DNA from: Natronosalvus vescus
GTDB taxonomy: Archaea; Halobacteriota; Halobacteria; Halobacteriales; Natrialbaceae
Assembly (NCBI RefSeq): GCF_023973145.1
Contig: NZ_CP099546.1
Coordinates: forward strand, 310,001-374,000
Length of the DNA: 64,000 nt
Direction of reading: 5' to 3'
In this document: positions 1 through 18,424 of the stretch, one piece after another
Numbering within the stretch: the first letter of the stretch is position 1
How the letters are laid out: each line of letters begins with the position of its first letter
Notes under the pieces: generated by a model
The model's input: the letters and a program-made list of their open reading frames with translations, nothing else
What the model was told of the DNA's origin: nothing
Database searches by the model: none
Position numbers and translations under genes: made by a program

Positions 1-847
1 CGATTCCGTCGCCGTCCGCGCGGCCGTCCGTATGTGTGAGTTTCTGGGCGAAGCAGTCCACGTCGATGGCCGCGTCGGTGCCGAGGAGACTGACGGTCGC
101 GTCGCCCCAGAAGTCCCACGTCTCCGGCTTGCTCCAGGACCCGTCGAGAGAGAACTGCGTCCCGTCGGTGAGTGTCATCGAGAGGAGGTTCACGTCCTCG
201 ACCGGGATGTCGTGGAACCGCGACCCCGTCTCTGCGTAGACGGTCTCGACGCGTTCGCCGGTCAGCCAGTGTACCAGATCCACGATGTGCACCGTGTGAT
301 CCATCACGGCACCGCCGCCGGAGGCGTCCGGATCGACGAACCAATCGCCCGGCATTTTCCCCCGGTTCGTCCCGGTGATGCTCATGAGCGTGCCGATCTC
401 ACCCGCCTCGAGGGACGTTTTCGCCTCCCGGGCCGGCAGGCTGAACCGCAGCGGCATGGCGACCCCGAGGTGGACGTCTGCGTCGGCACACGCATCGACG
501 ATCGCTCGTGCGTCGTCGACTTCCGGGGCGAGCGGTTTCTCCGAGAGGACGTCGACGCCAGCCGCCGCGGCTCGTTCGATCCAGGATCGGTGCTCGACGT
601 TCGTCGAACAGACGATGACGCCATCGACGCGGTCGAACAGCGCGTCGGACTCGAGGTACTCGACACCGTGTTCGTCGGTGAACGCGCGCCCCCGCGACTC
701 GTCTCGGTCGGCGACGCCGACGAGGGTCGCTCCCTCGAGCGCCTCGAGCTGGGCGGCGTAGGCACCGGCGTGGAGATGGGCGGCCGAACAGATGCCGATG
801 CGGACGTCCTCACCGTTTCGGTCGCCTCCACGAGCGGGGGCAGTCAT
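1..847 (-). CDS. Gfo/Idh/MocA family oxidoreductase (partial, C-terminus off left edge)
   Basis: Reading the minus strand from the ATG at 847 gives MTAPARGGDRNGEDVRIGIC and continues open to base 1, so the C-terminus is missing. The Rossmann start (VRIGIC..HLHAGAYAAQ) and the VLSEKPLAP segment are the usual NAD(P)-binding and E-K-P motifs of this family, which oxidises or reduces sugars and cyclitols. The ATG overlaps the stop of the upstream oxidoreductase by 4 bases (ATGA), so the two are co-transcribed and translationally coupled. The substrate cannot be read from the sequence. Two linked members may act on successive or epimeric intermediates (inference). Confidence 0.88.
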   Translation of the reverse strand, partial: MTAPARGGDRNGEDVRIGICSAAHLHAGAYAAQLEALEGATLVGVADRDESRGRAFTDEHGVEYLESDALFDRVDGVIVCSTNVEHRSWIERAAAAGVDVLSEKPLAPEVDDARAIVDACADADVHLGVAMPLRFSLPAREAKTSLEAGEIGTLMSITGTNRGKMPGDWFVDPDASGGGAVMDHTVHIVDLVHWLTGERVETVYAETGSRFHDIPVEDVNLLSMTLTDGTQFSLDGSWSKPETWDFWGDATVSLLGTDAAIDVDCFAQKLTHTDGRADGDGI

Positions 848-1821
848 GCGACCACCTCCTCGACCGCGACGGGCCGCCCTTCCGTCGCGGAGCGGTTCGC
901 CGCGATCGACAGGCGGAGCGTCTCGATCGCATCTTGGGCAGTGACGGGAGGTTCGGTTCCCGTGCGAACGCTCTCGACGAACGCCTCGAGTTCGCGCTGG
1001 TAGCCGCCCGCGTCGACCGGGCTGGCGGTTTCGGTTCCGCCCGCGGTCATCGTCGTCACGGCGGCGTCGTTGCCGTCGTACTCGAGAAGTCCGTCGTCGC
1101 CGGCGATCTCGAGGGAGTGGGTGAGTTCCTGGCTCTCGGGCAGGCCCCACGACGCCTCGACGTAGCCGACGGCTCCGTCCTCGAACCGGAGGGTGACGTG
1201 GGCGTGTTCGCCGCCGTCCCAGATCGACCGGCGGGCGAAGACCCGGTCGACGTCGCCGACGACCCACCGGAGGTAATCGAGGTCGTGGATCGCCAGGTCG
1301 ACCAGCACCCCTCCGCTGCGGTCGCGGTCGGCGTACCAGTTATCATGTCCCCACGAGGGGAACGGCGACAGCCGTCGAGCGCGAGCGACGCCCGGGGTGC
1401 CGATCCCGCCGTCGTCGACGACCCCCCGGATCCGCTCGTACTGTGGGAAAAACCGCAGGACGTGGCCGACCATGAGCGAGATCCCGCTTTCCTCGGCTAC
1501 GTCCGCGATCGCGCGGGCGTCCTCGAGGGTGCCAGCGATCGGTTTCTCACAGAATGCGTCGACTCCGTGTTCGGCGGCTTGCTCGACGATCGGGCGGTGC
1601 GTCGGTGTCGGCGAACAGATGTCGATGGCGTCGACCGTCCCGTCCTCGAGCAGTTCATCGGCGGATGAATAGGTTGCCGCCTCGAGTCCTGTGCTGTCGA
1701 CGAACTCGTCGGCCGTGCTCGGCGAGGCGACCGCGACGATGGTCGCGTCGTCGATACCTGCGTAGGCGTCGGCGTGGGTTTCGGCCATGAACCCGCTGCC
1801 AACGATACCAATGCGTACCAT
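844..1821 (-). CDS. Gfo/Idh/MocA family NAD(P)-dependent oxidoreductase
   Basis: The 325-residue product begins MVRIGIVGSGFMAETH, a Rossmann fingerprint, then ICSPTPTHRP and FCEKPIAG, the E-K-P motif of sugar and inositol dehydrogenases. The C-terminal alpha/beta domain carries GGVLVDLAIHDLDYLRWVVG with the usual D..H residues. A GTG nine bases upstream is open, but ATG 1821 places the glycine-rich loop at the normal distance. It runs directly into the second oxidoreductase (ATGA overlap). Like its neighbours it probably belongs to an aminosugar or cyclitol pathway. The exact substrate is unknown. Confidence 0.9.
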   Translation of the reverse strand: MVRIGIVGSGFMAETHADAYAGIDDATIVAVASPSTADEFVDSTGLEAATYSSADELLEDGTVDAIDICSPTPTHRPIVEQAAEHGVDAFCEKPIAGTLEDARAIADVAEESGISLMVGHVLRFFPQYERIRGVVDDGGIGTPGVARARRLSPFPSWGHDNWYADRDRSGGVLVDLAIHDLDYLRWVVGDVDRVFARRSIWDGGEHAHVTLRFEDGAVGYVEASWGLPESQELTHSLEIAGDDGLLEYDGNDAAVTTMTAGGTETASPVDAGGYQRELEAFVESVRTGTEPPVTAQDAIETLRLSIAANRSATEGRPVAVEEVVA

Positions 1822-1891
1822 ACCACACACATCGGACGAGGGGGTAAAAACTGTGCCGACGGACGACTATCGATCCCGTTTCGGTTCGGGG

Positions 1892-3406
1892 TTACCGCAG
1901 CGCGCGAATGCCGATAGCCGCGCCGAAAAACTCTCGATCGGCTCGTTCGATGCCGAGTAGCCAGATGAGGCCGCCGTAGGTCACCAGGCCGACGACGATA
2001 CCCGCAGCGAGGAGCGGGATTCCCGAAAGCGGGAAGTGCAGTCCGTACATCGTCAGGCCGGCTCCAGCGCCGGCGGCAAGCGGCTTGAGAAACCCTCGCG
2101 TGTAGGGGTACAGTCCCTCGAGGTACCAGATCTCGAGAAGGCGGGCGACGTTGTTGAGGGCGCCGATGGTAGCGGTCGCGAGCGCTGCCCCGATCAGCCC
2201 GTACTCGAGGATGAAGTAGTAGTTGAGCACGACGTTGCAGACGCCGAAGACCCACTGGTTCGCGAGGAGGACGTACTGGTGGCCCGATATCATCAGGAGG
2301 TAGCCGCTCGGCCCGACCGCGTTGTTGAGCAGCTGGCTGGCCACGAAGAACGCGAGGACGGCCGCGCCAGCCGTGAACTCGGGGCCGAACAGGGCGAGGA
2401 TCTCGGTTCGGTAGAGGGCAGCGACGAGCCCGAGAAAGAGCGAGCTCGTCAGCGTCCAACGCGTGACGATGCTGAAGACGCGATTGAGTTCCTCGAGATT
2501 CCCGTTGGAATAGAGCCGCGAGGCGACCGGCGGAAACAGCTGATTGAAGGCGGCGAGTGGCAACGACAACATCGCCGCGACGATGAGCGTGACGTTGTAG
2601 ATCCCGACGGCGGTCGACGTGAGGAAAAACCCCACCATCAGGACGTCGATGCGACTTCGAAAGATCGCGCCGGTATCCTTCAACACCAGCGGGATCGAGA
2701 GGTTGTAGTACTCCCTGACGTCGCTGGCCGACCCCGCCGACCGACCGATCGACGGCCGGAGCGAGAGGCGCGTCAGCAGGAAGTAGATCCCGACGAGGAA
2801 GACGACGACACTGGCGACCACGAGCGCGGCCATGACGCCGTAAAACGAGAGGCCGAGGAGGAGGGCGAGACCGACGCCGAGCAGTCGCGAGACCGGTTTG
2901 AGAAACTGCAGGAGAAAGACCGAGTACTCGAGACGCTCGAGGCTCCTGAACGTCCCCGCCACGATCTGTACCATCGTGTCGAACACCAGGACGATCGCGA
3001 ACAGGCGCAGGACGTCGACGAGTAACGGGTCGCCGAGGGTGTATCGGGTGACGACCGGGGCTGTGAGGTACAGGCCTGCCGCGACGACGAAACTCGCGAC
3101 GAACGAGGTGGCGTAGGCGAGGCCGAGCATGAACCGCTGCTTTCGTTCGTCGTCTTCGTACTGGGGGACGTACTTGAGGATCGAGTTGGTCGATCCGAGG
3201 TTCGTAAAGACGAGCGCAATTGCGATCAGCGTGTTCGCGTAGGCGAACACCCCGTACATCGTCGAGGTGAGTGCCCGAGTGAGTACGAGGGTGAGGAGAA
3301 ATTGGAGCGCGTCGAGGACTATTCGTCCGATAATAAACACGAGTGCGCCGCGGGAAATCGACTGGAGCGACGCGACGGCTACGTCGCGACTGCGTTCATC
3401 GCTCAT
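1892..3406 (-). CDS. Polysaccharide/lipid-linked sugar flippase (MATE/RfbX-like, oligosaccharide flippase family)
   Basis: The 504-residue product is very hydrophobic with about 12-14 predicted membrane helices. It opens with a short cytoplasmic tail (MSDERSRDVAVASLQ) followed by GALVFIIGRIVLDALQFLLT, typical of the Wzx/RfbX/AglR-type flippases that move lipid-linked glycans across the membrane. A TATA-like box (TATAAAT) at 3434-3440 supports a leaderless transcript. Together with the deacetylase upstream and the sugar oxidoreductases downstream it suggests export of a glycan. No glycosyltransferase is visible in the window, so the cargo is unknown. Confidence 0.85.
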   Translation of the reverse strand: MSDERSRDVAVASLQSISRGALVFIIGRIVLDALQFLLTLVLTRALTSTMYGVFAYANTLIAIALVFTNLGSTNSILKYVPQYEDDERKQRFMLGLAYATSFVASFVVAAGLYLTAPVVTRYTLGDPLLVDVLRLFAIVLVFDTMVQIVAGTFRSLERLEYSVFLLQFLKPVSRLLGVGLALLLGLSFYGVMAALVVASVVVFLVGIYFLLTRLSLRPSIGRSAGSASDVREYYNLSIPLVLKDTGAIFRSRIDVLMVGFFLTSTAVGIYNVTLIVAAMLSLPLAAFNQLFPPVASRLYSNGNLEELNRVFSIVTRWTLTSSLFLGLVAALYRTEILALFGPEFTAGAAVLAFFVASQLLNNAVGPSGYLLMISGHQYVLLANQWVFGVCNVVLNYYFILEYGLIGAALATATIGALNNVARLLEIWYLEGLYPYTRGFLKPLAAGAGAGLTMYGLHFPLSGIPLLAAGIVVGLVTYGGLIWLLGIERADREFFGAAIGIRALR

Positions 3407-3490: not shown

Positions 3491-4189
3491 TCACTCGAGA
3501 AAGTCGACCGTGGTGTCGTGGAGTCGGGTGAACCCCTCGGCGTACGTCGCTCCTGCCTGTCGACCCAGGGTGTTCGCGGTCGCGCGCATGCTCTCGACGA
3601 AGTCGTCGAACTCGGCGTCGATGCCGCCGTGTTCCTCGAGCCAGGCGACCTGGGATTCGTGACAGAGGGCGGCCTCCTCTTTGATCTCCTGGAAGTCGGT
3701 AACGTCGACGATGACCGTCGGATCGAACGCGGATGTCGGCTTGCCGAAGTAGTAGACGTTGGTCGGATCACAGGGTGGGTGGTCGGTCTCGAGCAGCGGC
3801 AGTGACACCATGTAGTAGGCGTCGGTCACCAGTTTCGAGGTGACGCGGTGGTCGGGGTGCATGTCGTCGGCGAAGTGCGTGAGCACGATGTCGGGGGCGA
3901 CCGACCGGATGCAGTCGACGAGGGCGAGCCGGTTCTCGAGGGAGTACGTCACCCGTCCGTCCTCGAAGTCGAGGAACGTCGTCTCTGCACCGAGTACCTC
4001 TGCAGCGCGGCGGGCTTCGTCCTCCCGGGTCGCGGCGAGTTCCGCCTCGCTGGTGTCGAAGCCGCCGTACTCTCCGCGGGTCATGTAGGCGATAGTGACG
4101 TCGTCGCCACGGTCGGCGTGTTTCGCGAGCGTTCCGCCACAGAAGATCTCGGCGTCGTCGGGGTGTGCAACGATAGCGAGTACCTGCAT
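3491..4189 (-). CDS. PIG-L family deacetylase (LmbE-like)
   Basis: This 232-residue protein starts MQVLAIVAHPDDAEIFCGG; the H-P-D-D motif at residues 9-12 binds the catalytic zinc. The second metal histidine lies in MHPDHRVTSKLV. Family members remove acetyl groups from N-acetylglucosamine-type sugars. The start is set by the immediate zinc motif and a TATA-like box 28 nt upstream; a longer open frame beyond it has no family similarity. It is divergent from the stress-protein gene. In this context it may deacetylate an aminosugar carried by the adjacent flippase pathway, which is inference. Confidence 0.9.
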   Translation of the reverse strand: MQVLAIVAHPDDAEIFCGGTLAKHADRGDDVTIAYMTRGEYGGFDTSEAELAATREDEARRAAEVLGAETTFLDFEDGRVTYSLENRLALVDCIRSVAPDIVLTHFADDMHPDHRVTSKLVTDAYYMVSLPLLETDHPPCDPTNVYYFGKPTSAFDPTVIVDVTDFQEIKEEAALCHESQVAWLEEHGGIDAEFDDFVESMRATANTLGRQAGATYAEGFTRLHDTTVDFLE

Positions 4190-4355: not shown

Positions 4356-4811
4356 ATGGAACGCGCACTGATCGTCCACGAGGAATCGCATTCCACGGAA
4401 CCCCTCCTTCGGGAAGCTGCAACCCTCGCCGCAGGGGTCGATGCCGAACTCGTCATTCTCTCGCTGGTGACGCCCGAGGAACTCGACCAGGATCTCGAGA
4501 CGCTCGAGACGATCGCCGACATCGAACACACGGACTACGGGGCCGACACCGTCCTCCAGTCGGCGGTCGTCGCGGCCAAGGATCACGCCGCCGACGTCAT
4601 CGGGGACGTCGACGTCGAGTACACCGCCGTCGCGAGCATCGCCGACGACGGGGCGGCGAGAACAATCGTCGAGACGGCCGTGCAGAACGACTGCGACCAC
4701 GTCTTCCTCGCCGGACGGAAACGCTCGCCGACCGGGAAGGTACTCTTTGGCGACGTCGCCCAGTCCGTGTTACTCAACTTCGAGGGCCGAGTGACTGTCG
4801 AACTGTCGTGA
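4356..4811 (+). CDS. Universal stress protein (UspA-like)
   Basis: The 151-residue protein begins MERALIVHEESHSTEPLLRE and has the alpha/beta Usp layout, ending with HVFLAGRKRSPTGKVLFGDV, which resembles the nucleotide-binding GxxGxxxxG(S/x)V segment of the family. The usual ATP-loop is imperfect (RKRSPTGKVLFGDVAQSVL). Usp proteins are small cytoplasmic stress modulators. The gene ends 111 bp before the acetyltransferase frame and may be co-transcribed with it. Confidence 0.85.
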   Translation: MERALIVHEESHSTEPLLREAATLAAGVDAELVILSLVTPEELDQDLETLETIADIEHTDYGADTVLQSAVVAAKDHAADVIGDVDVEYTAVASIADDGAARTIVETAVQNDCDHVFLAGRKRSPTGKVLFGDVAQSVLLNFEGRVTVELS

Positions 4812-4824: not shown

Positions 4825-5630
4825 ATGACCGGCTATTCGTCCGGTCAGTCCAACCAATCCAATCAGTCCGACCAATCCGACCGACCCTCACCGTCGGCGA
4901 TCTCGTCGACGATTTCCGTTCGATGGGCCTCGAGCGCGGCGACGAGCTCGTCGTCCACGGTTCGCTCTCGAGCATCGGCTGGGTCGAAGGCGGTGCCGAG
5001 ACCGTCGTCGACGCGCTGTGCGCGGCCGTCGGCGACACCAGAACCGTCGTCGTCCCGACGTTCACTCCCTTCGTCGTCCGCGAGGAACCGTTCGACAGCG
5101 CGGAAACCCGCTCTCGAACCGGTGCGATAACCGAAGCGCTGCGGACGCGCGAGCACGCCGTCCGGAGCGATCATCCAACGCACTTCGTCTCGGCTCTCGG
5201 CCCGGCTGCTGAACCGCTGACGGACGGCCACGCACTCGAGCGTTCGCTGGGCCGCGATAGCCCGCTGGATCGCCTCGCTCGCCGCGGCGGGAAGATCCTC
5301 CTGCTGGGTGTCGGTCACGAACGCAATTCGACGATTCACATGGCCGAAGCGCTCGCCGACCTGCCGTACAAGACGGGCACCAACGAGGTGCTGATTCGTG
5401 GCGCGGACGACGCTATCAGAACGGTCGAGGCGGCGACGGTCGGCTGTGGGAAGGGGTTCTCGGCTTTCGAACCGGTTCTCGAGGAGGTGGGGCTCCTCAC
5501 ACGCGGTCGTATCGGTGAGGCCGACGCACAGGTACTTCCAGGAAAGGGGCTGCTCGAGGAACGTCCCGCGTTCGCACTGTGTGACGAGTCGGACTGTTGG
5601 TGGTGTCCTGAAGCGAAGCAAATGGTGTGA
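4825..5630 (+). pseudogene. AAC(3)-family N-acetyltransferase, apparent frameshift near the N-terminus
   Basis: From ATG 4923 the frame gives 235 residues of an AAC(3)/YokD-type acetyl-CoA transferase: ELVVHGSLSSIGWVEGG, SDHPTHFVSALGPA with the conserved histidine, and LLLGVGHERNSTIHMAE. Family homology continues upstream of that ATG (TLTVGDLVDDFRS), but the frame has no start codon back to the stop of the stress-protein gene. ATG 4825 opens a frame encoding MTGYSSGQSNQSNQSDQSDR. Adding one C in the CCC run at 4885-4887 would join the two into 268 residues, the normal family length. So the gene is either frameshifted, mis-assembled, or starts late at 4923. The enzyme may acetylate an aminosugar rather than an antibiotic. 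Confidence 0.7.
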
Positions 5631-5738: not shown

Positions 5739-7250
5739 TCAGGAGAGGTTGCGAACCGTCACGTCGCTCTCGTCGTCGGCGACGATCGCCTCGCCGGTGA
5801 CGTCGATCGACGGATTGTTCACCATACCGGTGGCGTTCTGGAAGCTGATACCGTCCCGATCCGCGCCGGACTGGGTGACGCGGAGGTTGTTGACGGTCGC
5901 GTCACAGTTGCCGAGCAGGAGCGCCGATCCGGTACCGGCGTCGCCGGCAACGTGAACGTTGTTGAGCCTGACCTCGTCCCCGCCCTGGAGGTACCGGACG
6001 GCGTGTCGACCGTCGCGGTTGAGTTCGAACCGGCTGTTGACGACCTCGAGGGAGCCGTGGTGGCTCGCCTCCTCGAGGATCCCCTCCCCGTTGGGGTGGT
6101 CGTGGACGACGTCGATGTTCTCGTAGGTGCCGTCGAAACTGTGCCAGATCCAGCCAGCACGGCTGGTGATGGCCCCCCACGGCGTCGCAGGGATCTCCCC
6201 CTCCTCGGTGACGACGGTGCAGTCTTTCGCGTAACTGCCAGGCGACCCGAGACGGATCGCCGTGATGTTGTTGTTCTCGAAGTGGCAGTTCTCGACACGA
6301 ACGGATCCTTCCTGACCGTTGTGCTGGCCGGGCGGTGAGGCGTAGATCGCGTTGTCCGAGAAGTTGGAAAACTCACAACTCTGAAAGAGTAGATCGCCAG
6401 CGTGGTGGAAGGTAACCCAGCAACCGCCCTTGCGGCTGAACGGCTGGACTCCGTCCGGAGCGCGGACGTTCTCAATGACGCCAGTTCCGTCCCGGCCGAA
6501 TACGCCGGGTCCGACGCAGAACGGGTCGTCCAGTATGACGCTCGGGTCGTACTCCGGATCTTGCCAGTGGGGAGTTTCTACGTAGTCGCCCGTCACTTTC
6601 CCGTCGAAGTGAATGTCCTTGATGACTAACTGGTCGGATCCCTGTACGGTTATCCCAGATGAAGTGTCATCGACGGTCTGATCGACGGTGAAGTTTTCGA
6701 TGCGAAGGTCTCGTCCCCAGAGCGTGAAAATCGGGTGTCGACCCCCTTCAGCCGGTCGGAGGATAGCATCTCCGTCACCCTCTCCGACGAGCGCCAACTT
6801 CCCGAGGAACTGCTGCTCTTCCGGGTGAGCAGGACTAATTCCCCACCGAGTAAAGCCGAAACCCCTCGCCCCGGCTTCGATCACGTATTCGCCTTCAGGG
6901 AAGATCACCTTGACACCGCCGTCGTCGAAGTCGATCTCGTCGATGGCCGGCATCGGCCAGCCCTGGGCTGGTGCATAGTGGCTGAAGTCGTACTCGACGT
7001 CGGCGGTCGCCGCCGCGAGCGCGTCGTTGATTGGCTCCGAACCCGTGTTGTCGGCACCGAGGTCGTCGACGACGTCGAGGACGACGTCGTACTCGTCGTC
7101 CGACGCCGCGACGCTTGGGACGCCGGCGGCACCGGCGAGGAGGCCGGCTCCGGCTAGCTGGAGGTACCTGCGCCGGTTTACCGTGGTGTGTTCGATCGTT
7201 CGAGAGTCGTCGCTCAAGCTGTGGTCGTGACTACTGTTGTCAAATGGCAT
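5739..7250 (-). CDS. Secreted right-handed beta-helix protein (Tat substrate)
   Basis: This 503-residue protein has a twin-arginine leader (VNRRRYLQLAGAGLLAGAAG) and an Ala-rich cleavage region, so it is exported folded. The body has repeated beta-helix coils (FTLWGRDLRIENFTVDQT, VRVENCHFENNNITAIRLG, EVRLNNVHVAGDAG), typical of pectate-lyase-fold polysaccharide lyases, glycosidases and epimerases. No catalytic residues can be assigned by eye. Lying between a deacetylase/acetyltransferase group and a sulfatase, it could cut or bind an extracellular polysaccharide (inference). Confidence 0.8.
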   Translation of the reverse strand: MPFDNSSHDHSLSDDSRTIEHTTVNRRRYLQLAGAGLLAGAAGVPSVAASDDEYDVVLDVVDDLGADNTGSEPINDALAAATADVEYDFSHYAPAQGWPMPAIDEIDFDDGGVKVIFPEGEYVIEAGARGFGFTRWGISPAHPEEQQFLGKLALVGEGDGDAILRPAEGGRHPIFTLWGRDLRIENFTVDQTVDDTSSGITVQGSDQLVIKDIHFDGKVTGDYVETPHWQDPEYDPSVILDDPFCVGPGVFGRDGTGVIENVRAPDGVQPFSRKGGCWVTFHHAGDLLFQSCEFSNFSDNAIYASPPGQHNGQEGSVRVENCHFENNNITAIRLGSPGSYAKDCTVVTEEGEIPATPWGAITSRAGWIWHSFDGTYENIDVVHDHPNGEGILEEASHHGSLEVVNSRFELNRDGRHAVRYLQGGDEVRLNNVHVAGDAGTGSALLLGNCDATVNNLRVTQSGADRDGISFQNATGMVNNPSIDVTGEAIVADDESDVTVRNLS

Positions 7251-7505: not shown

Positions 7506-8978
7506 ATGTCGAATCGACCGAACATCCTGTTTATCATGACGGATCAGCACCGCGGCGACTGCATCGGTGCCGATCCCGACTCGCCGCGAGATCGCGACGG
7601 GCGACCGCTCGTTCACACCCCCAACATCGACAACCTGATCGAGAACGGAGCGATGTTCACGCGAGCCTACACCCCTGCCCCTTCGTGTATCCCTGCGCGG
7701 CGCTCCCTGCTCACCGGCCAGACGCCGTTCACCAACGGGGCACCCGGCTGGGTAACCACCCCCTGGGAGTTCGAGCACACCCTCCCCCAGGAACTTCGCG
7801 ACGCTGGTTACCAGACCAAACTCACCGGGAAGATTCACTCGATCCCGATCCGGAACCACGTCGGTTTCGAGGATATGGAGCAACACGAGGCGCTGTTCGC
7901 CCACCCGGACGACGACTACACGCGCTGGCTCGAGGCCGAGAGCGGCGGCAAGTACGAGGAACTCGGCACCGGGCTGGGTCGGAACTCCTGGGATCCGCGG
8001 CCGTGGCACCTCGAGGAGTACCACCACCCGACGAACTGGACGACGCGTCGGGCGCTCGAGTTCCTCGACCAGCGCGACGACACCCGGCCGTTCTTCCTCA
8101 ACCTCTCGTACGTCCGCCCCCACACGCCGTTCGATCCGCCGCAGGTGTACTGGGACATGTACGTCGACCGGGAGACGCCGGAGCCGTACGTGGGCGACTG
8201 GATCGACGCCGAACACGGCGAGAAGATCCCCGACTACCCGGCGATCGACGCCTGGCTCGCCGACCTCCCGCCGACCATCGTCCATCGGGCTCGAGCCGCG
8301 TACTACGGGCTCATCACCCACATCGACCACCAGATAAAGCGCGTCTTCGACAAACTCCGCACCATCGGCGAACTCGAGAACACGTTCGTCGTTTTCCTGT
8401 CGGATCACGGCGAGATGCTCGGCGACCACCACATGTGGCGAAAGACCTACGCCTACGAGGGGTCGGCCCGGGTGCCGCTTCTCCTGCAGTTCCCCGAGTC
8501 GATGGAACTCCCGCGAAAACGGATCGTCGGCCAACCCGTCGGCCTCGAGGACGTGATGCCGACGCTGCTGTCGGTGGCCGGCGTCGACGTCCCGGAGACC
8601 GTCGAAGGACGGAACCTGCTCGACCTCGTCGAAGAGCCGGATCGCGAGGACTGGCGGGAGTGGTACCACGGCGAACACGCCGCCGGCAGCTACGACCCCG
8701 AGAACGGTACCCAGTACCTGATCGACGAGCAGTTCAAGTACGTCTGGAATCCCGTGACCGGCAGCGAACTCCTCTTCGACCTCGCAGCCGACCCCGGCGA
8801 GGAACGCGACCTCTCCGACGATGGGGATCACGCCGGCGAACTCGAGCGTGCTCGAGACGCGATGGTCGAACGGCTCTCGAGTCGACCCGAGGGGTTCGTC
8901 GAGGATGGGGAACTCGTCCCGACCGACGCGGGCCCGGACGACGTCGGCGACCCGGACGATTGCAGCACGAGTAGCTGA
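7506..8978 (+). CDS. Sulfatase (alkaline-phosphatase superfamily, Cys-type)
   Basis: The 490-residue protein starts MSNRPNILFIMTDQHRGDC, with the N-terminal metal Asp. The signature SCIPARRSLLTG places C61 in C-x-P-x-R, the cysteine oxidised to formylglycine. FLSDHGEMLGDHHMWRK supplies further metal and substrate residues. It hydrolyses sulfate esters. No signal peptide is seen, so it probably acts in the cytoplasm on an imported or intermediate sulfated sugar. No formylglycine-generating enzyme is in the window. The sugar isomerase follows about 100 bp downstream. Confidence 0.93.
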   Translation: MSNRPNILFIMTDQHRGDCIGADPDSPRDRDGRPLVHTPNIDNLIENGAMFTRAYTPAPSCIPARRSLLTGQTPFTNGAPGWVTTPWEFEHTLPQELRDAGYQTKLTGKIHSIPIRNHVGFEDMEQHEALFAHPDDDYTRWLEAESGGKYEELGTGLGRNSWDPRPWHLEEYHHPTNWTTRRALEFLDQRDDTRPFFLNLSYVRPHTPFDPPQVYWDMYVDRETPEPYVGDWIDAEHGEKIPDYPAIDAWLADLPPTIVHRARAAYYGLITHIDHQIKRVFDKLRTIGELENTFVVFLSDHGEMLGDHHMWRKTYAYEGSARVPLLLQFPESMELPRKRIVGQPVGLEDVMPTLLSVAGVDVPETVEGRNLLDLVEEPDREDWREWYHGEHAAGSYDPENGTQYLIDEQFKYVWNPVTGSELLFDLAADPGEERDLSDDGDHAGELERARDAMVERLSSRPEGFVEDGELVPTDAGPDDVGDPDDCSTSS

Positions 8979-10417: not shown

Positions 10418-10726
10418 ATGGATTCGCCCCGAAGAAACAATGGTAGTGGTGGGAGTGAACGGCCGTTCGAGTACGGTTTCAAAGAACACACCTCGGTGAG
10501 TGTCGCGATCGTCGAAGCGATCGCTGCAGTCGAACGCGTTGCGCCGACGACGACGCCGAAAGAACTCGGCTTCACGCTGTACGACTACATTGACACCGAT
10601 GCACTCGACGCGCTCTTCGACGGTCAGCAGGTGTCCGAGTGCCTCGAGGTCGAGTTCGATGTTGACTGTTACGAGATCCGCGTCGAGGGCTCCGGCCGAA
10701 TTCTCGTCTCGACGGGCGAACGCTAA
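10418..10726 (+). CDS. HalOD1 output-domain protein (stand-alone)
   Basis: This 102-residue protein consists almost only of a HalOD1 domain: SVSVAIVEAIAAVERVAP, LGFTLYDYIDTDALDALFDG and VEFDVDCYEIRVEGSG. HalOD1 is a small haloarchaeal output domain found alone or in signalling proteins; its target is unknown. A second stand-alone copy of the same length lies at 24357-24665. The ATG at 10418 is preferred over an in-frame TTG at 10409. Confidence 0.8.
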   Translation: MDSPRRNNGSGGSERPFEYGFKEHTSVSVAIVEAIAAVERVAPTTTPKELGFTLYDYIDTDALDALFDGQQVSECLEVEFDVDCYEIRVEGSGRILVSTGER

Positions 10727-10777: not shown

Positions 10778-11866
10778 TCAGTTCGACTCGAGCAGCGGTT
10801 CGACGTACTCTGGGGAGTAGCGCAGACAGCGATAGACGTTCCCTATCGACCCCTCCTCGTTGAACGGGCTGACGAAGTCCCAGACGACCTCGCCGTCGGG
10901 CGTGACCTCGAAGAGGTGGGCCTTCGTTCCCTCACAGATCAGCGTGTTGCCGTTCGGGAGTCGCTGGGCCCCGGAGATGAACGGCGCGTAGAAGTCCTCC
11001 TTCGGCGAGCCGGTGTACTCCCAGACGATCTCCTCGCTGAGCGGGTCGAGTTCGATCACGCGCGACCAGCCCCGCTCGGTGCCGTTGTCGAAAATGAGCA
11101 GATTGCCGTTCTCGAGCATGTAGGGGAGGTGCTGGCCGTCGAGTTCGCTGGGCCCCCACGCCCAGACGATTTCGCCGCTGGGGTAGTCGATGACGCCGAT
11201 GACGTCGACGCTCCGGTAGGAGAAGACGATGTTCCCCGGTTCGAAGCGGACGGGGCCGTCTCCCTCGAGTTCTTTCCGGTAGGTGTCGTTCTCGGGGATG
11301 AGCTGGAGCGTGTTGTTGTGGGCCCAGTCGAAGGAGTAGTCGTTCTCGATGCGGTCTTCGACGAAGGCCCACTCGTCGTCGGGGAGAAGTTCCCGGATCT
11401 CGTCGACGTGATCCTCGCCGAACCACTCCCAGTGGAGGTTCTTCTCCCGGTCGATCTCGACGATGTAGGGGTTGCGCTTCAGCTCCGGCCCGAGGTCGGG
11501 CACCATGTTGTCGGTGATGGTGTGACACATGAGATGGCCGTTGTCCATCACCTGATAGTCGTGGTCGATCCGGCAGTGGTACGACCAGACGACGTTGCTG
11601 TCTGGGTCGAGTTCCCGGAGGCCGGCCTGGGAGAGATCGGATCGATCACGTGTCGGGTAGAGGAGGTTGCCGTTCGGGAGCAGCCGGGTGTGTGACTGCA
11701 CGGCGGTTTCGACCTCCCAGCGGTGGACTGGCTCGCCGTCCATGTCGACGAGGTATACCTTCCCCTTTCCGTCGGGGGCCTCCTCGGGAAACTGGTACGT
11801 TTCGTTGAAGAGCGTGTAGCCCTCGTAGTACTGCTCGGCGTCTGCAATTGTAACTCCTGATGGCAT
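10778..11866 (-). CDS. Arylsulfotransferase (ASST)-like beta-propeller protein
   Basis: The 362-residue product starts MPSGVTIADAEQYYEGYTLF and has repeated propeller blades: VQSHTRLLPNGNLLYPTRD, VVWSYHCRIDHDYQVMDNGH, QHLPYMLENGNLLIFDNG, GAQRLPNGNTLICEG. This is the pattern of arylsulfotransferase-type proteins, which move sulfate between phenolic or sugar acceptors. No signal peptide is evident, unlike periplasmic bacterial ASST. A longer open frame reaches 11998 but lacks family similarity. A sulfotransferase-like protein beside two sulfatases suggests sulfated metabolites; the activity is not proven by sequence. Confidence 0.8.
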   Translation of the reverse strand: MPSGVTIADAEQYYEGYTLFNETYQFPEEAPDGKGKVYLVDMDGEPVHRWEVETAVQSHTRLLPNGNLLYPTRDRSDLSQAGLRELDPDSNVVWSYHCRIDHDYQVMDNGHLMCHTITDNMVPDLGPELKRNPYIVEIDREKNLHWEWFGEDHVDEIRELLPDDEWAFVEDRIENDYSFDWAHNNTLQLIPENDTYRKELEGDGPVRFEPGNIVFSYRSVDVIGVIDYPSGEIVWAWGPSELDGQHLPYMLENGNLLIFDNGTERGWSRVIELDPLSEEIVWEYTGSPKEDFYAPFISGAQRLPNGNTLICEGTKAHLFEVTPDGEVVWDFVSPFNEEGSIGNVYRCLRYSPEYVEPLLESN

Positions 11867-12098
11867 GCGTGCTACCGTGTTAGCCGTTCCCAGCCCAGTG
11901 TGATAAGCGTATTCCTCCGGCTTGTCGATTCCGTCTCGGGCGTTCGATCGTTCTACATGTTCGGGTCGTTCGATGCGATTAGCCCGTTCACCGTTCATTG
12001 TACTCTCGAGTCCCGAACGTGGCTAACGAGTCCGTTCAGCACGCTCGAGCACTGAACGATTTCCGGGAGGAAAACCCTTATCAGGTACTGTCTGGGAG

Positions 12099-12668
12099 AT
12101 GCATACAATGGGACGAGTTCGCCTTACCCGTCGCCAGTATAGCGTCGCAATCACCTCCGGTCTCGTCGCCGCGCTTGCCGGCTGTCTCGACGGAGACGAT
12201 GCGGACGACGACCTCGAGCCAGCGGACGACGATGACGCCGTCGACGACGATCAGGAGGACGAGACCGATGGTACAGATTCGGACGACGAGCAGGATGCGG
12301 ACGACCAGGACTCCGATGACGATGCGGCGGCCGACGAAAACGACTACGGCGCGGTCGGTGAACTCACCGTCATCCTCGAGAACGAAGACGGCGATCCCGT
12401 CTCGGACGGCGTCGAGGTGCAGGTCATGCACGACGAGGAGGGCGTCGGTGTCGTTACCGAGGAAATCATCGACGGCGTCGCCCAGGTCGAACTGGTCGAA
12501 TCTGGCCCCTACACCGTCCGTGCGGAGAGCCTCACCGACGAGTTCGAATCGGTCGAGGAGGGCATCGAGGTCGAGGGCGACGAAGAGATCACGCTGGTTC
12601 TCGAGGGTGCGGCGGGTGACGAGGACGTGGATGAGGACGACGGCGAGGAAGAGGACGACGGGGAGTAA
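12099..12668 (+). CDS. Acidic Tat lipoprotein, unknown function
   Basis: This 189-residue protein has a twin-arginine leader (RLTRRQYSVAITSGLVAALAGC) ending in a lipobox cysteine, so it is probably a membrane-anchored surface lipoprotein. A roughly 60-residue Asp/Glu-rich linker follows, then a domain of about 80 residues (GELTVILENEDGDPVSDGVEV...GPYTVRAESL) resembling a carboxypeptidase-regulatory-like/Ig-type beta-sandwich, and a second acidic tail. ATG 12108 is an alternative start. It may be a sugar- or surface-binding accessory protein (inference). Confidence 0.72.
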   Translation: MHTMGRVRLTRRQYSVAITSGLVAALAGCLDGDDADDDLEPADDDDAVDDDQEDETDGTDSDDEQDADDQDSDDDAAADENDYGAVGELTVILENEDGDPVSDGVEVQVMHDEEGVGVVTEEIIDGVAQVELVESGPYTVRAESLTDEFESVEEGIEVEGDEEITLVLEGAAGDEDVDEDDGEEEDDGE

Positions 12669-12959: not shown

Positions 12960-14195
12960 ATGACCAGGTTAGCACTCAACGGCGGCCCCGAGGCGGCCGC
13001 GGGGCTCGATATTCCGCGGTGGCCTCAATGTACGGACACGAGCAAAGAATACGTTCTCGATGCCCTCGAGTCGGAGAAGTGGTGTCGAATCATCGACGGG
13101 GCGGACTGGGTCGACCGGTTCGAATCCGAGTTCGCCGACTATCACGACGCCGAACACGCGATCGCCGTGAGCAACGGGACGGTCGCGATCGAACTCGCGT
13201 TGCGCGCGTCCGGATTGCAACCCGGTGACGAAGTCCTCGTCCCGGCGTACACCTTCATCGCCACCGCAAGCGCGGTCGCCTGTATGGGCGGCGTTCCGAA
13301 GTTCGTCGACGTCGACCCCAACACGTTCAACATCGATCCCGAGTCCGTCCGGGAGAACGTTACCGATCGGACGGTCGGGATCGTCGGCGTTCACTTCGGC
13401 GGCTATCCGATGGACATGGACGAACTACTGCCGATTGTCGAGGAACACGGCCTGTTCCTCATCGAGGATTCGGCTCACGCGCAGGGCTCCGAGTGGCGCG
13501 GACAGCGGGTCGGCACGTTCGGCGACTTCGGCACGTTCTCCTTCCAGCAGTCGAAGTCCCTGCCGGCCGGCGAGGGTGGTATCGTCGTCACCGACGACGA
13601 CGTCCTCGCCGAGGAGGCTTCGCTCGTCCACAACATCGGCCGCCCCGTGGGCGCGGGATACAAACACACCATGCTCGCGTCGAACTACCGGCTGCCGGAG
13701 CTACAGGGGGCGCTTCTCTGTTCGCAACTCGAGAAACTCCCCGACGAAAACCGCCGTCGCCAGGAAAACGAGGAGCGCCTCGTCTCGGAACTCGACGTGA
13801 TCGACGGTATCCACACGCTACGGAGAGACGACCGAATCACGAACCGCGGCTACTGCGTGTACAACTTCCGCTACGACGCGGACGCGTTCGACGGCCTGTC
13901 GCGCGATCGGTTCCTCGAGGCCCTCAGAGCCGAGGGCGTGCCGGCCAGTCCGGGATACGGGCTCCCCCTCTACAAACAGCCTGCCTTCTCTCGCGAACAA
14001 CTCGGGACGCTCGTGCCGCCGGACACCGAGATTCCGGTCAACCGGCACCTCCATCTCCCCGGCGTCGAGGAGATCATGGAGACGAACGTCAGGCTCTCCC
14101 ACACCGCGCTCCTCGCGGAGGGTGAGACGATCAACGCCATCCCGCGAGCGATCCGCAAGATACAGGAGAACGTCGATCAGTTGCTCGAGTCCTGA
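12960..14195 (+). CDS. DegT/DnrJ/EryC1/StrS family PLP aminotransferase
   Basis: The 411-residue protein contains the fold-type I aminotransferase core of sugar aminotransferases: AIAVSNGTVAIELALRASGL, DEVLVPAYTFIATASAV, LIEDSAHAQGSEWRG and FSFQQSKSLPAGEGG with the PLP lysine K199. Family members aminate keto-sugars or inososes (StsC-like) using glutamate or glutamine. ATG 12960 is preferred: upstream in-frame codons have no similarity, and a hairpin sits between. It is followed by a second aminotransferase in the same direction, implying a multi-aminated product (inference). Confidence 0.93.
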   Translation: MTRLALNGGPEAAAGLDIPRWPQCTDTSKEYVLDALESEKWCRIIDGADWVDRFESEFADYHDAEHAIAVSNGTVAIELALRASGLQPGDEVLVPAYTFIATASAVACMGGVPKFVDVDPNTFNIDPESVRENVTDRTVGIVGVHFGGYPMDMDELLPIVEEHGLFLIEDSAHAQGSEWRGQRVGTFGDFGTFSFQQSKSLPAGEGGIVVTDDDVLAEEASLVHNIGRPVGAGYKHTMLASNYRLPELQGALLCSQLEKLPDENRRRQENEERLVSELDVIDGIHTLRRDDRITNRGYCVYNFRYDADAFDGLSRDRFLEALRAEGVPASPGYGLPLYKQPAFSREQLGTLVPPDTEIPVNRHLHLPGVEEIMETNVRLSHTALLAEGETINAIPRAIRKIQENVDQLLES

Positions 14196-14359: not shown

Positions 14360-15700
14360 ATGTCCAGCGGTTCACCGTTAGTGTCCACTGATCGGTCGAT
14401 CACCGAATCGAGACGCCTCGTCGAACGCGCCTCGAAGGTCATCCCGGAGGCGACCCAGACCGGGAGCAAACGCCCTACGCAGTTCGTCCAGGGCGTTTCG
14501 CCCACCCACATCGTACGTGGGGAAGGAAGTCGGCTGTGGGACGCCGACGGCAACGAATACGTCGACTGTAACGCCGCGCTCGGCCCGATTCTCCTCGGCC
14601 ACAACTACCCGGCGGTGACCGACGCGGTGAAAGCCCAACTCGACGACGGGACGATGTTCAGCATGGAACACCCACTCCACGTCGAGGTCGCCGAACTGTT
14701 CACCGAGGTCGTCCCCTGTGCGGAGATGGTTCGTTTCGCCAAGAGCGGCAACGACGTCACCGCCCTCGCGGCGAAGGTCGCTCGAGCGTCCACCGACCGG
14801 GACGTCGTCGCCACGCAGGGCTACCACGGCTGGCCCGATGTCTGGATGGGGAACAAGCCGGGGCTCAACGCCGGGGTTCCCGACGTGGTCGGCGAGTACA
14901 CCGAGGAGTTCGCGTACAACGACATCGAGAGCGTCGAGCGAATCTTCGAGGCACACCCCGATGACGTCGCTGCAATCGTGACGACGCCAGTGAACCTCGA
15001 GATGCCCGAGGACGGTTTTCTCGAGGAGCTTCGAGAACTCGCCGACCGGGAGGGAGCACTGCTCGTCTTCGACGAAGTGCTAACCGGGTTCCGGTTCGCC
15101 CTCGGCGGCGCCCAGGAGTACTTCGGCGTGACCCCCGACCTCGCGTGTTTCGCGAAGGGGATGGCCAACGGCTATCCGATCTCCGCACTCGCCGGGAAGC
15201 GAGAGTACATGGAGGTTCTGAGCCGTGGCGACTTCTTCTACTCGATGACCTACGCCGGCGAGGCGGCGTCGCTGGCGGCGACGAAGGCGTCGATTACCGT
15301 CCAGCGCGAGGAGAACGTTCACGACCACATCTTTACCGTGGGCGAGACGCTCATCAACGGCTACAACGAACTCGCCGCCGAACTGGATCTCGGCGATGTC
15401 ACGCAAGCGAAGGGGCTCCCACCGCGGTTCGTCGTTCAGTTCACGGACGACGAGGGCAACCACGACCAGCTCGTCCGGAGCCTCTTCATGCAGGAGGCCC
15501 ACAAACGGGGCGTCCTCTACACCGGCGGGCACATTCCGACGTACAGCCACACCGACGAGGACGTCGAGTGGATCCTCGACGCCTACCACGAGGCCCTCGA
15601 AATCGTGGGGGACGCTCTCGAGAACGACGACGTCGCCTACAGACTCGAGGGTGAACCAGTCGGCGCGACGCTGCGTCAGCGAACCGGCGAAAACGACTGA
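14360..15700 (+). CDS. Class III aminotransferase, glutamate-1-semialdehyde aminomutase-like
   Basis: This 446-residue PLP enzyme carries RGEGSRLWDADGNEYVDC, FAKSGNDVTALAAKVARA, LVFDEVLTGFR and FAKGMANGYPISALAG with lysine K266. It is most like GSA-type aminotransferases, but the company of sugar genes and the degenerate G/N-D motif (usual SGTEA replaced by SGNDV) suggest a sugar or amino-alcohol substrate rather than tetrapyrrole synthesis. The hemC-cobA-hemD operon is elsewhere (22-24 kb). A TATA-like element (ACTTATC) lies about 30 nt upstream. A T-run follows the stop. Confidence 0.88.
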   Translation: MSSGSPLVSTDRSITESRRLVERASKVIPEATQTGSKRPTQFVQGVSPTHIVRGEGSRLWDADGNEYVDCNAALGPILLGHNYPAVTDAVKAQLDDGTMFSMEHPLHVEVAELFTEVVPCAEMVRFAKSGNDVTALAAKVARASTDRDVVATQGYHGWPDVWMGNKPGLNAGVPDVVGEYTEEFAYNDIESVERIFEAHPDDVAAIVTTPVNLEMPEDGFLEELRELADREGALLVFDEVLTGFRFALGGAQEYFGVTPDLACFAKGMANGYPISALAGKREYMEVLSRGDFFYSMTYAGEAASLAATKASITVQREENVHDHIFTVGETLINGYNELAAELDLGDVTQAKGLPPRFVVQFTDDEGNHDQLVRSLFMQEAHKRGVLYTGGHIPTYSHTDEDVEWILDAYHEALEIVGDALENDDVAYRLEGEPVGATLRQRTGEND

Positions 15701-15719
15701 TACGGAACAGACTGGCGGA

Positions 15720-15725: not shown

Positions 15726-15977
15726 GTGACCCGTATGGGCAGCAGTGCTCGTTCGAGCGGTTAGAGACACGAGTGAACGGGTGGCTCGAGTGCCGATCGA
15801 TCGGCTCGAGTCATCGGTGGTTTGGCGCTGACAACGGTCGACCGGATAGTCGCTCACACCGGACACTTGAGCGGGACGACGAAGCGCCGACGGCCGACCA
15901 CCGTTCATCGTGATCCGGGCCCGATCACCGGCACGTACGTAGGTTTATTAACCGCGACGTCAGACGAGTGGATACGA

Positions 15978-17324
15978 ATGGCAACCGCTGACGAACAGCC
16001 ACGCGGAGACGACAGTGGGTCGGACGGAGGCGACGAGAGCGCCCCCGAACGACGCTGTGACGGAGGACGCACCCTCGGGACACGTGAACACGAGTGGCGG
16101 GTCGGCACTGCAACCGTACCGATCACGCCCAATGAAGACGAGCCCCATCGACTCATCGGATTCGGCGCCCGCGAGGGTCACATGGACGGCGTCGAACACG
16201 ACATCTACGCGCGAGCGGTCGCGTTCGAGGACGGCACCGGACGACGGATGGTTCTCGTATCCTACGAACTGCTGTTCGTGTTCGAAACGCAGCGTGCGCT
16301 CCTCGAGCGCGAGTGTGCCGAACGCTGGGATCTCGAACCCGAAGCGCTCCTCATCAATCCCAGTCACACCCACTACGGCCCGGACTACGACGTTCACGAG
16401 GAAGGGCTCGAGGAGGACTACGACCGGGACGACGACCTCGTCGCCGCCTACCGCGAGTTCGTCGACGAGCGACTGCTCGAGGTGATCGGCGCGGCGCTCG
16501 ACGACCTCGAACCGGCCTCGCTCGCCTCCCACCGGGCGAAACTCGCCATTGCGATGAACCGTCGCCGCCCGCTGGAAGGCGGGATCGGATTCGATCCCAC
16601 GCCCGACGGGCCGGTCGACCACGACCTGCCGGTGCTCACCGCTAAAACGGAAGGCGGCGAGGTGAAGGCGCTGCTGTTCGGCTACGCCTGTCACCCGACG
16701 GTCGGGATGGCGTTCTGTAACGAGGTCAACGGCGACTGGCCGGGGTACGCGATGTCGATCCTCGAGGAGGCCTACCCGGAGGCGACGGCCGTCTTCGTGA
16801 TCGGCTGTGCGGGCGATCAGAAGGCCTACCCGCAGGGGAGTCGCGAACTCGTCCGCCAGCACGCCCGAACGGCGGCGACGGCGGTCGAACGCGCGCTCGT
16901 GACCGAACCGCGGCCGGTTCGCGGGCCGTTAAAACTCGCGGCGGGAGGCGTCAACCTCGACGTCGAGAATCCCATCGAGGACGACGACGGAACCCAGATC
17001 GGGATGGAGGTAACTGACCACCGGCCGTACCCCATCCAGGCCGTCGGCTTCGGCACCGACCTCACCCTGCTCTCGTTGTCCGGGGAGGTCGTCGCCGACA
17101 CCTCGCTTCGACTGAAGGACACGCTCGAACCGCCGCTGTGGGTGGCCGGCTACGCGAACAACACGGGGTATCTGCCGACGAAACGAATCCTGGCCGAGGG
17201 CGGATACGAATCCTGGCAGTCCTTCGAGGACGGCCACTACGCGCCGTCGACCGCCGAGCGAATCCACAACAAGGCAGTTTCGCTCGCCGAACGCGTTGGG
17301 GCACAGCGGAGGGAGCGACCGTAA
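15978..17324 (+). CDS. Neutral/alkaline non-lysosomal ceramidase N-terminal domain protein
   Basis: The 448-residue protein has, after a roughly 40-residue acidic N-terminal extension, VGTATVPITPNEDEPHRLIGFGAR, INPSHTHYGPDYD with likely zinc histidines, GYACHPTVGMAF and FVIGCAGDQKAYPQG. These match the N-terminal catalytic domain of neutral ceramidase-like amidohydrolases; the C-terminal Ig-like domain of true ceramidases is absent. Such short proteins commonly sit in sugar-catabolic clusters with Gfo/Idh enzymes and may hydrolyse an N-acyl aminosugar (inference). There is no signal peptide. The stop overlaps the next ATG (TAATG). Confidence 0.85.
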   Translation: MATADEQPRGDDSGSDGGDESAPERRCDGGRTLGTREHEWRVGTATVPITPNEDEPHRLIGFGAREGHMDGVEHDIYARAVAFEDGTGRRMVLVSYELLFVFETQRALLERECAERWDLEPEALLINPSHTHYGPDYDVHEEGLEEDYDRDDDLVAAYREFVDERLLEVIGAALDDLEPASLASHRAKLAIAMNRRRPLEGGIGFDPTPDGPVDHDLPVLTAKTEGGEVKALLFGYACHPTVGMAFCNEVNGDWPGYAMSILEEAYPEATAVFVIGCAGDQKAYPQGSRELVRQHARTAATAVERALVTEPRPVRGPLKLAAGGVNLDVENPIEDDDGTQIGMEVTDHRPYPIQAVGFGTDLTLLSLSGEVVADTSLRLKDTLEPPLWVAGYANNTGYLPTKRILAEGGYESWQSFEDGHYAPSTAERIHNKAVSLAERVGAQRRERP

Positions 17325-18424
17325 TGTCCTCGAAAGACCGGCGCGGTACCCGCTACCGCACGGAACCGGGCCCACGCGTTTCGACCGATTTCACCTACCG
17401 CGGAATCGACGCCGCGATCCTCGAGAACGAAGCGCTTCGCGTGATGGTGTTGACCGGCAAGGGAGGCGACCTGGTCGAGTTCCGTGACAAGCGGACGGAC
17501 GTCGACGTCCTCTGGCGAACGCCGCACAAGTGGACGGCCCCGAGCGACCGGTACGTCCCGTCGACGAATACGACCTGGAACGAACACTATCCGGGCGGCT
17601 GGCAAGTGAACCTCCCGATCGCCGGCGACGGGATGGAGATCGACGGCAGCAGCTACGGCCAGCACGGCGAGAGCGCTCTCCTCCCGTGGGACGCCGAGGT
17701 CGTCCGTGACGACGGCGAGGCCGTGACGCTCCGGCTCACCGTCGAACTCGTCCGGTATCCCTTCTTCGTCGAGCGTGAGTTGACGCTGCGGGCCGGCGAG
17801 TCGAGCCTCCACATCGACGAGTCGGTGACTAACCTCGGCGGGGTGTCACTCGAGTACGTCTGGCAACAACACGTCACGCTGGGGGAACCGCTACTCTCGC
17901 CGGCCGCACGGCTCGATCTACCCGAGGCGACCGGTATCAACGCACCGTACGGGGACGGCTTCCCGAACGCGCGACTCGAAGGAGACGTGGCCTACGAGTG
18001 GCCCCACTCCCCGGGCGCGGACGGTGGCACCGTCGACCTGCGGGACATTCCGCCGCGGTCGGCGACGGTTCACGACCAGTCCTACGCGATCGATCTGTCC
18101 GAGGGCTGGTATGCACTGACCAATCCGGAACTCGATTTGGGATTCGGTCTGCAGTTCCCACACGAGACGTTCGACTGCCTGTGGTACTGGCAACCCTTTG
18201 GCGGCTACCACGAGTCACCGTGGTTCAACCGCACCTACAACGTCGGCCTCGAGCCGACGACGCGTTATCCGGGCGACACACTCCCCGGCGACCTCGGATC
18301 GAACGACCCCCGAGACGTTCTCGATCCCGGCGAAACCGTCGACGCCTCGTTCACCGCCGTCACCTACGACGGCCTCGAGGAAGTGACCGGCGTCTCGCCC
18401 GACGGCACAGTCGAGGGTCGATAG
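17324..18424 (+). CDS. Aldose 1-epimerase/galactose-mutarotase-like protein (DUF4432-like)
   Basis: The 366-residue beta-sandwich protein has LENEALRVMVLTGKGGDLVEFRD, NEHYPGGWQVNLP, YGQHGESALLPWDAEVV and FDCLWYWQPFGGYHESPW, the layout of mutarotase-fold proteins. Histidines at WNEHYPGG and QHGESALL are candidates for the active site. The start codon shares an A with the ceramidase-like gene stop (TAATG), so it is translationally coupled and likely acts in the same pathway, interconverting anomers of the released sugar. Confidence 0.8.
   Translation: MSSKDRRGTRYRTEPGPRVSTDFTYRGIDAAILENEALRVMVLTGKGGDLVEFRDKRTDVDVLWRTPHKWTAPSDRYVPSTNTTWNEHYPGGWQVNLPIAGDGMEIDGSSYGQHGESALLPWDAEVVRDDGEAVTLRLTVELVRYPFFVERELTLRAGESSLHIDESVTNLGGVSLEYVWQQHVTLGEPLLSPAARLDLPEATGINAPYGDGFPNARLEGDVAYEWPHSPGADGGTVDLRDIPPRSATVHDQSYAIDLSEGWYALTNPELDLGFGLQFPHETFDCLWYWQPFGGYHESPWFNRTYNVGLEPTTRYPGDTLPGDLGSNDPRDVLDPGETVDASFTAVTYDGLEEVTGVSPDGTVEGR

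Follow-up and report, generated by a model that had tools for sequence, protein, structure and literature searches.

Glycosaminoglycan use by haloarchaea was reported in 2026 as a previously unknown capacity (Sorokin et al. 2026, PMC13260240), and the polysaccharide utilization locus (PUL)-like loci described there are the nearest described system to the gene cluster examined here. This cluster extends into a stretch of 64,000 nucleotides (the window) at NZ_CP099546.1:310001-374000, within the complete 3.84-Mb chromosome (G000) of a haloarchaeon of the genus Natronosalvus. Like our cluster, the glycosaminoglycan loci (up to 46 kb) lie on plasmids or genomic islands and combine a sulfatase with an ATP-binding cassette (ABC) importer; they serve the use of sulfated amino-sugar polymers, a kind of substrate that is probable here too. 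Unlike it, they employ a different enzyme set built on a PL8 lyase, GH88, and GH154, none of which occurs among the Pfam-scanned island genes (a scan confined to the island and covering all of it but g009, g019, and some tiny genes), and ceramidase and Gfo proteins are not mentioned in that report.

A second point of comparison is the Agrobacterium GlycDH-OGE-HYD-Gfo operon, in which TIM barrels eliminate 3-keto-glycosides and Gfo genes stand alongside (PMC10628242). Its Gfo oxidoreductase and its sugar-phosphate-isomerase-like TIM barrels have counterparts in the island, but it comprises four enzymes and lacks an amidase, an aminotransferase, and a sulfatase, and the 3-keto chemistry that we propose for the island is an analogy reaching only as far as the protein families and the Gfo coupling. 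As a whole, the unit is probably a PUL-like island that spreads horizontally and serves the catabolism of a sulfated, N-acylated amino-sugar glycan; we infer the substrate, the direction of the aminotransferases, the sequence of reactions, and the chemistry of elimination. A mobile island with such other chemistry would widen the range of archaeal food sources. A preliminary description of the window had named a set of gene families and assigned them to an aminated, sulfated molecule; Pfam and NCBIfam scans recover these families together where it had placed them, and the assignment is supported. Only the right third of the whole gene unit is visible in the cluster part of the window. A further 38 kb of the same island precede the window start and, together with a beta-helix protein (g040), a universal stress protein, and a HalOD1 protein, go beyond that description. 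Genes were called with a codon model and named from g000 upward, while negative coordinates lie left of window base 1.

The aminotransferase and ceramidase-like pair

The core enzyme pair of the island, a sugar aminotransferase and a ceramidase-like amidase, is uncharacterized, and its two members are also found together in other archaea and in bacteria. It is formed by g046 (12960 to 14195, plus strand), a DegT/DnrJ/EryC1/StrS aminotransferase that retains its pyridoxal phosphate (PLP) lysine in a QQSK..GEGG motif, and g048 (15978 to 17324, plus strand), a putative zinc amidase consisting of the ceramidase catalytic domain only. Searches of the open literature turned up no description of a DegT-ceramidase catabolic pair; subscription papers could hold one. 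The two genes are same-strand neighbors, separated by 4-45 bp or overlapping, in G076, G064, the second G001 locus, and Haladaptatus, and they overlap in Natronococcus CG52. They are likewise adjacent in a Bathyarchaeon and lie 86-105 bp apart in two Chloroflexota. The Chloroflexota genome G473 encodes a minimal module, arranged as substrate-binding protein (SBP) - permease - permease - DegT - DegT - ceramidase and flanked by unrelated genes. Among nine Chloroflexota-class genomes with the ceramidase gene, this sugar importer sits beside it in four and a DegT gene beside or near it in three.

The closest Protein Data Bank (PDB) relatives of g046 are 2-deoxy-scyllo-inosose aminotransferases (5W71, 2C7T) and 3-amino-5-hydroxybenzoate (AHBA) synthase (1B9H), with which it shares the PLP lysine and the GEGG motif. 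Despite this likeness, the ceramidase-linked forms from haloarchaea, the Bathyarchaeon, and Chloroflexota group together in a tree of 32 DegT proteins as a single clade (support 100/99), apart from the other DegT proteins of our genome, BtrR, and AHBA synthase, and the gene contexts of the clade members are catabolic. BtrR, which falls outside the clade, is the sole inosose-aminotransferase reference and the deeper forks are weak; the two references, BtrR and AHBA synthase, are incomplete, having been taken from PDB-search alignments, and one frameshifted Chloroflexota DegT was omitted.

For g048, the sequence match to the neutral ceramidase domain PF04734 (29.0 bits) falls under the Pfam cut-off of 32.1, whereas its paralogue g004 passes with 73.3 bits and matches the solved ceramidase 2zws by sequence at 5e-11. 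Residues H130, H132, H239, E370, and Y398 of g048 are invariant across nine homologues, down to 24% identity, and correspond to the putative zinc residues of neutral ceramidase. In a fold search with the AlphaFold model of g048 (mean pLDDT 69.9, pTM 0.76), only neutral ceramidases match below E 0.001, at about 1e-16 to 1e-17, such that the predicted structure confirms a neutral-ceramidase fold. The HTH, ACHP, GEV, and GY segments of solved neutral ceramidases (2ZWS, 4WGK) also align. The ceramidase-like proteins differ from these in their length of ~430-450 aa, compared with 646-688 aa, and in their context of sugar-importer and amino-sugar genes.

Tentatively, the pair might constitute an undescribed catabolic module of Halobacteria, Bathyarchaeota, and Chloroflexota, in which the amidase would de-N-acylate an imported amino sugar or aminocyclitol and the DegT enzyme would then deaminate it; in haloarchaea, it would be central to a pathway for sulfated amino-glycans in which glycosidic bonds are cleaved largely without glycoside hydrolases. 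If so, short ceramidase-N proteins and DegT enzymes outside of biosynthesis, both large and poorly understood groups, would gain a concrete, testable pathway, and the minimal three-part module of importer, DegT, and amidase is small enough for reconstitution. The same observations bear upon a different catabolic role, in which the compound broken down would be small and free, an aminocyclitol or an amino-sugar conjugate of the rhizopine kind, instead of a polymer. The kinship of the DegT enzyme to inosose aminotransferases and the lack of a depolymerase in the Chloroflexota module would both fit such a role, and the combination of Gfo/Idh, IolE-like protein, aminotransferase, and importer resembles the gene set for rhizopine use. 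However, a sulfated polymer is suggested by the two sulfatases and the exported beta-helix protein of the island, along with the heparinase II/III and GH20 of sister loci, and we regard a small-molecule substrate as unlikely.

Two further observations concern the archaeal pair and a bacterial relative of the ceramidase-like protein. Next after the Bathyarchaeal pair, on its strand, comes a gene for a 1019-aa GH106-like protein of the alpha-L-rhamnosidase family (L100:4482-10133). A Planctomycetota metagenome-assembled genome (L098:7395-13007) has a ceramidase-like sequence inside one 1871-aa open frame, a far larger protein.

Conservation and mobility of the island

In separate searches of 120 further genomes of the family, the ceramidase-like protein and the class III aminotransferase g047 had their high-identity matches in the same eight genomes, at 74-83% and 63-85%, respectively. 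Orthologues of the island genes co-occur, reshuffled and often plasmid-borne, in these eight further Natrialbaceae genomes as well as in Haloprofundus and Haladaptatus. Nine loci, including our own, were then compared by tblastn of all own genes and reciprocal best hits. Nine families are present in all nine loci: the Zn-dehydrogenase g033, PIG-L, the beta-helix protein, the sulfatase g041, the IolE-like g042, DegT, class III, the ceramidase-like protein, and DUF4432, with the 9/9 of the class III and ceramidase-like genes being by choice, since the loci were picked by them. Six others (g003, g004, g020, g034, g035, and g044) recur in eight of the nine. Certain adjacencies persist despite the shuffling, including ceramidase-DUF4432 in 9 loci and the Gfo pair, sulfatase-IolE, and class III-ceramidase in 6 each. 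In G047, the aminotransferase genes lie ~70 kb from the ceramidase gene on the same replicon.

Of 391 haloarchaeal class genomes, 12 have the class III gene, 16 have DegT, and 9 have the ceramidase gene, and every one of the 9 ceramidase genomes also carries both aminotransferase genes (hypergeometric values of 4e-16 and 2e-14, which ignore kinship). One of these, Haloprofundus salinisoli, belongs to another family and its copy is annotated on a plasmid; the Haladaptatus locus resembles that of Haloprofundus. The preliminary description had made its proposal depend upon co-conservation of the families in related genomes, and indeed, as the orthologues recur together in nine genomes of the family and co-occur in 9/9 cases among the 391, their co-localization exceeds chance. 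Certainly, the order of the genes is strongly shuffled, few adjacencies persist, and accessory genes differ from locus to locus, all of which could indicate several unrelated catabolic clusters accreted from a shared catabolic gene pool in the absence of any single pathway. Such an origin seems quite unlikely given the recurrence of the same nine families in every locus and of the same subfamilies in all nine ceramidase genomes. A separate case is replicon C2 of Natrononativus amylolyticus (G001), which has two different DegT-ceramidase loci (187-189 kb and 268-272 kb), one being a tight pair without a class III gene and the other a full cluster of the type in the window.

The boundaries of the island are evident from its flanks, which correspond to -40.3 to -38.1 kb on the left and to 19671-21211, containing a RecJ-like gene, on the right. 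The cluster is a discrete genomic island of about 58 kb, because these flanks are 57.8 kb apart here (about -38.1 to +19.7 kb), whereas they are separated by only ~2 kb in three relatives without the cluster: ~2.0 kb in the Natronosalvus genomes G053 and G033, and ~1.8 kb in G078, where the left flank is more divergent. Within the G053 interval, one reading frame resembles a PHP-domain protein. Either the island replaced ~2 kb of sequence or the relatives lost it with 2 kb remaining. On the right, the boundary falls within 18873 to 19671, where a gene for an IS630-type helix-turn-helix protein (19077 to 19586, minus strand; Pfam) lies at the island end, and synteny with the cluster-less relatives restarts at 19671 with the RecJ-like DHH gene. 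No tRNA and no clear repeats were found at the island ends, and a tRNA-integrated island was rejected on these grounds. In other genera, copies reside on plasmids, so that the locus is both discrete and mobile, and horizontal movement is probable as part of the overall catabolic-island reading.

Catabolic gene context and proposed pathway

Dedicated importers consisting of SBPs, permeases, and ATPases are encoded inside the clusters. In Haloprofundus, the genes run on one strand as SBP - GH28-like - DegT - class III - ATPase - ATPase - ceramidase-N. The Natronococcus CG52 locus adds a sulfatase, GH20, two heparinase II/III proteins, PIG-L, and several Gfo/Idh genes, while that of Halomontanus combines heparinase II/III, several sulfatases, an importer, both aminotransferases, and two ceramidase-N genes over ~80 kb. 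Threonine ammonia-lyase, RidA, and a DgaE-like lyase recur among the loci, the last (g016 type) as a partner in five. Like the D-glucosaminate-6-phosphate ammonia lyase DgaE, g016 keeps the SGGK PLP lysine, but it is a distant relative, as its scores of 206 and 200 bits fall short of the respective cut-offs (385 and 600). Outside the archaea, ceramidase-N genes on alphaproteobacterial plasmids sit with amidohydrolase, 6-phosphogluconolactonase/NagB-like, and SIS genes and a sugar importer, a context that reads as amino-sugar catabolism.

The preliminary description had left open whether the unit makes or recycles its molecule. Because importers, sulfatases, ammonia-lyases, RidA, a fumarylacetoacetate (FAA) hydrolase, and an aldolase are present, with heparinase II/III and GH20 in sister loci, the gene repertoire points to catabolism and not to biosynthesis; the PIG-L deacetylase favors the same side. 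We infer that the aminotransferases belong to the same pathway, presumably working in the deaminating direction. In the opposing scenario, the cluster would make an aminated, sulfated surface glycan or aminocyclitol, with oxidation by Gfo/Idh, amination by DegT and class III enzymes, acetylation by AAC(3), sulfation by the arylsulfotransferase (ASST), and export by the flippase. This would accord with the proximity of the DegT enzyme to 2-deoxy-scyllo-inosose aminotransferase and AHBA synthase, with the presence of flippase, AAC(3), and ASST-like genes, and with the nitrilase-type C-N hydrolases of some loci, which could clear 2-oxoglutaramate produced by a glutamine-dependent aminotransferase. 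However, no glycosyltransferase, nucleotidyltransferase, or cyclitol (inosose) synthase is found among the Pfam-scanned island genes, including the left extension, to which the earlier statement that glycosyltransferases and inosose synthases are missing can now be extended, and no glycosyltransferase or nucleotide-sugar gene is conserved across the loci. Moreover, the flippase is limited to one genus, importers, sulfatases, ammonia-lyases, and the aldolase share the clusters, and the aminotransferases are located within an importer operon in Haloprofundus and beside an importer in Chloroflexota. Owing to the missing glycosyltransferases, the genus-restricted flippase, and the importer linkage, biosynthesis was rejected as the primary reading and we consider it very unlikely. 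For the cyclitol idea of the preliminary description, the observations point both ways: g046 lies nearest to inosose aminotransferases, but the scanned island genes include no cyclitol synthase.

For the favored catabolic island, the following pathway can be proposed. An exported beta-helix enzyme, joined in sister loci by heparinase II/III and GH20, would cut a sulfated, N-acylated amino-sugar glycan, the fragments of which would enter the cell through a Dpp/Opp-type ABC importer. Sulfatases would then take off the sulfate, and the PIG-L and ceramidase-like zinc amidases would remove the N-acyl groups. Glycosidic bonds may be opened by oxidation and beta-elimination instead of hydrolysis, using the paired Gfo/Idh dehydrogenases and the IolE-like TIM barrels. 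The freed amine would presumably be removed by the DegT and class III aminotransferases and, in several loci, also by a DgaE-type PLP ammonia-lyase and by threonine ammonia-lyase with RidA, before the carbon skeleton exits via the FAA hydrolase and an HpaI-type aldolase. The DegT, class III, and DgaE-like enzymes all retain their PLP lysines.

Several points weigh against this pathway. Our genome's copy yielded no canonical glycoside hydrolase or polysaccharide lyase, and its sole depolymerase candidate is the beta-helix protein. The DegT-ceramidase link holds in just three of the nine Chloroflexota genomes carrying the ceramidase gene, and the g048 model is of modest confidence (pLDDT 69.9). 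Biosynthesis is the best-known setting of sugar aminotransferases of the DegT/StsC and class III types, the nearest solved DegT enzymes aminate cyclitol ketones using L-glutamine, and an AAC(3)-type acetyltransferase lies in the island. Lastly, the whole genome contains no formylglycine-generating enzyme (PF03781) and its radical-SAM maturase matches are far sub-threshold; therefore, sulfatase maturation is unexplained and sulfatase activity is predicted only. Haloferax volcanii is also not among the control genomes with a formylglycine-generating enzyme. Both sulfatases of the island do have the CxPxR activation motif, as CIPAR in g041 (in 9/9 loci) and as CLPSR in g013.

Other genes of the island

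At the left edge of the window, two Gfo/Idh/MocA oxidoreductases are encoded on the minus strand, each in 8/9 loci: g034 (341 aa; PF01408/PF22725), which starts at 847 and ends left of the window at -178, and g035 (844 to 1788), to which it is translationally coupled, with a 4-bp overlap in 6/9 loci. Next is the flippase-like Polysacc_synt protein g036 (1892 to 3406, minus strand; Pfam), which occurs elsewhere only in G005 (N. amylolyticus plasmid NZ_CP101160.1) and G066 (N. hydrolyticus AArc-curdl1), both of the host genus; with 3/9 loci, it was rejected as a core member. The PIG-L family de-N-acetylase g037 (3491 to 4189, minus strand) is BshB1-like and keeps the HPDD and HPDH motifs, although some of its counterparts in the nine loci are paralogues without HPDD. 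Pfam matches identify g038 (4356 to 4811, plus strand; 3/9 loci) as a universal stress protein, and Pfam and NCBIfam matches identify g039 (4923 to 5630, plus strand; 6/9 loci) as an AAC(3)-type N-acetyltransferase. The right-handed beta-helix protein g040 (5739 to 7250, minus strand; Pfam and sequence) bears a twin-arginine signal and is a candidate secreted lyase or hydrolase; a sequence search found no relative in the PDB, and in the Haloprofundus locus a GH28-related protein is annotated.

The preliminary description had spoken of sulfatases in the plural. One, the arylsulfatase-type g041 (7506 to 8978, plus strand; Pfam, with PRK13759 above its cut-off), lies in the window, and the second, g013, is about 23-25 kb to its left (about -24963 to -23410). 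In 6/9 loci, g041 adjoins the IolE-like xylose-isomerase TIM barrel g042 (9082 to 9879, plus strand; Pfam). These are followed by the HalOD1 output-domain protein g043 (10418 to 10726, plus strand; Pfam), the arylsulfotransferase-like g044 (10778 to 11998, minus strand; Pfam), and g045 (12108 to 12668, plus strand), a small acidic protein that has no Pfam match and whose N-terminus resembles that of a twin-arginine lipoprotein. Between the members of the core pair is the class III, glutamate-semialdehyde-aminotransferase-like g047 (14381 to 15700, plus strand), whose PLP lysine is kept in 9/9 loci. A Methylomagnum class III homologue was discarded as a parallel, as its neighbors, glycosyltransferases and a neuraminate-synthase-like gene, are biosynthetic and unlike the island. 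Downstream of the pair, the DUF4432 mutarotase-like g049 (17324 to 18424, plus strand; Pfam) adjoins g048 in all nine loci and overlaps it by 1-4 bp in eight, and the small hypothetical protein g050 (18525 to 18872, plus strand) is shared by three. A promoter scan was uninformative, its models being sigma-70 and unsuited to archaea.

Left of the window, the island encodes the Gfo/Idh proteins g003 and g014, the second ceramidase-N protein g004, RidA (g005), the Zn-dehydrogenases g006 and g033, the IolE-like TIM barrels g007 and g031, an IclR regulator (g008), an FAA hydrolase (g010), the amidohydrolase g012 and double amidohydrolase g020, the DgaE-like PLP ammonia-lyase g016 (recognized from its orthologue), a Dpp-type ABC importer (g021-g023, g026), M19- and M20-type hydrolases (g027, g030), and an HpaI-type aldolase (g028). 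An L-fucose/L-rhamnose diketo-hydrolase pathway, suggested by the FAA hydrolase and aldolase, was dropped since the FAA hydrolase reaches just 140 bits, where the cut-off for that activity is 500, and g016 is DgaE-like, not a sugar-acid dehydratase. Nitrilase-type C-N hydrolases, absent from the cluster of the window, occur in several others (L103:31261-32241, L104:23345-24328) and are possibly omega-amidases serving a glutamine-dependent aminotransferase. The left extension also encodes, at about -28160 to -18942, a luciferase-like monooxygenase (g015), a flavin reductase (g017), and an N,N-dimethylformamidase-like protein (g011), which may indicate a step outside the proposed pathway, catalyzed by an oxygenase or cleaving a C-N bond.

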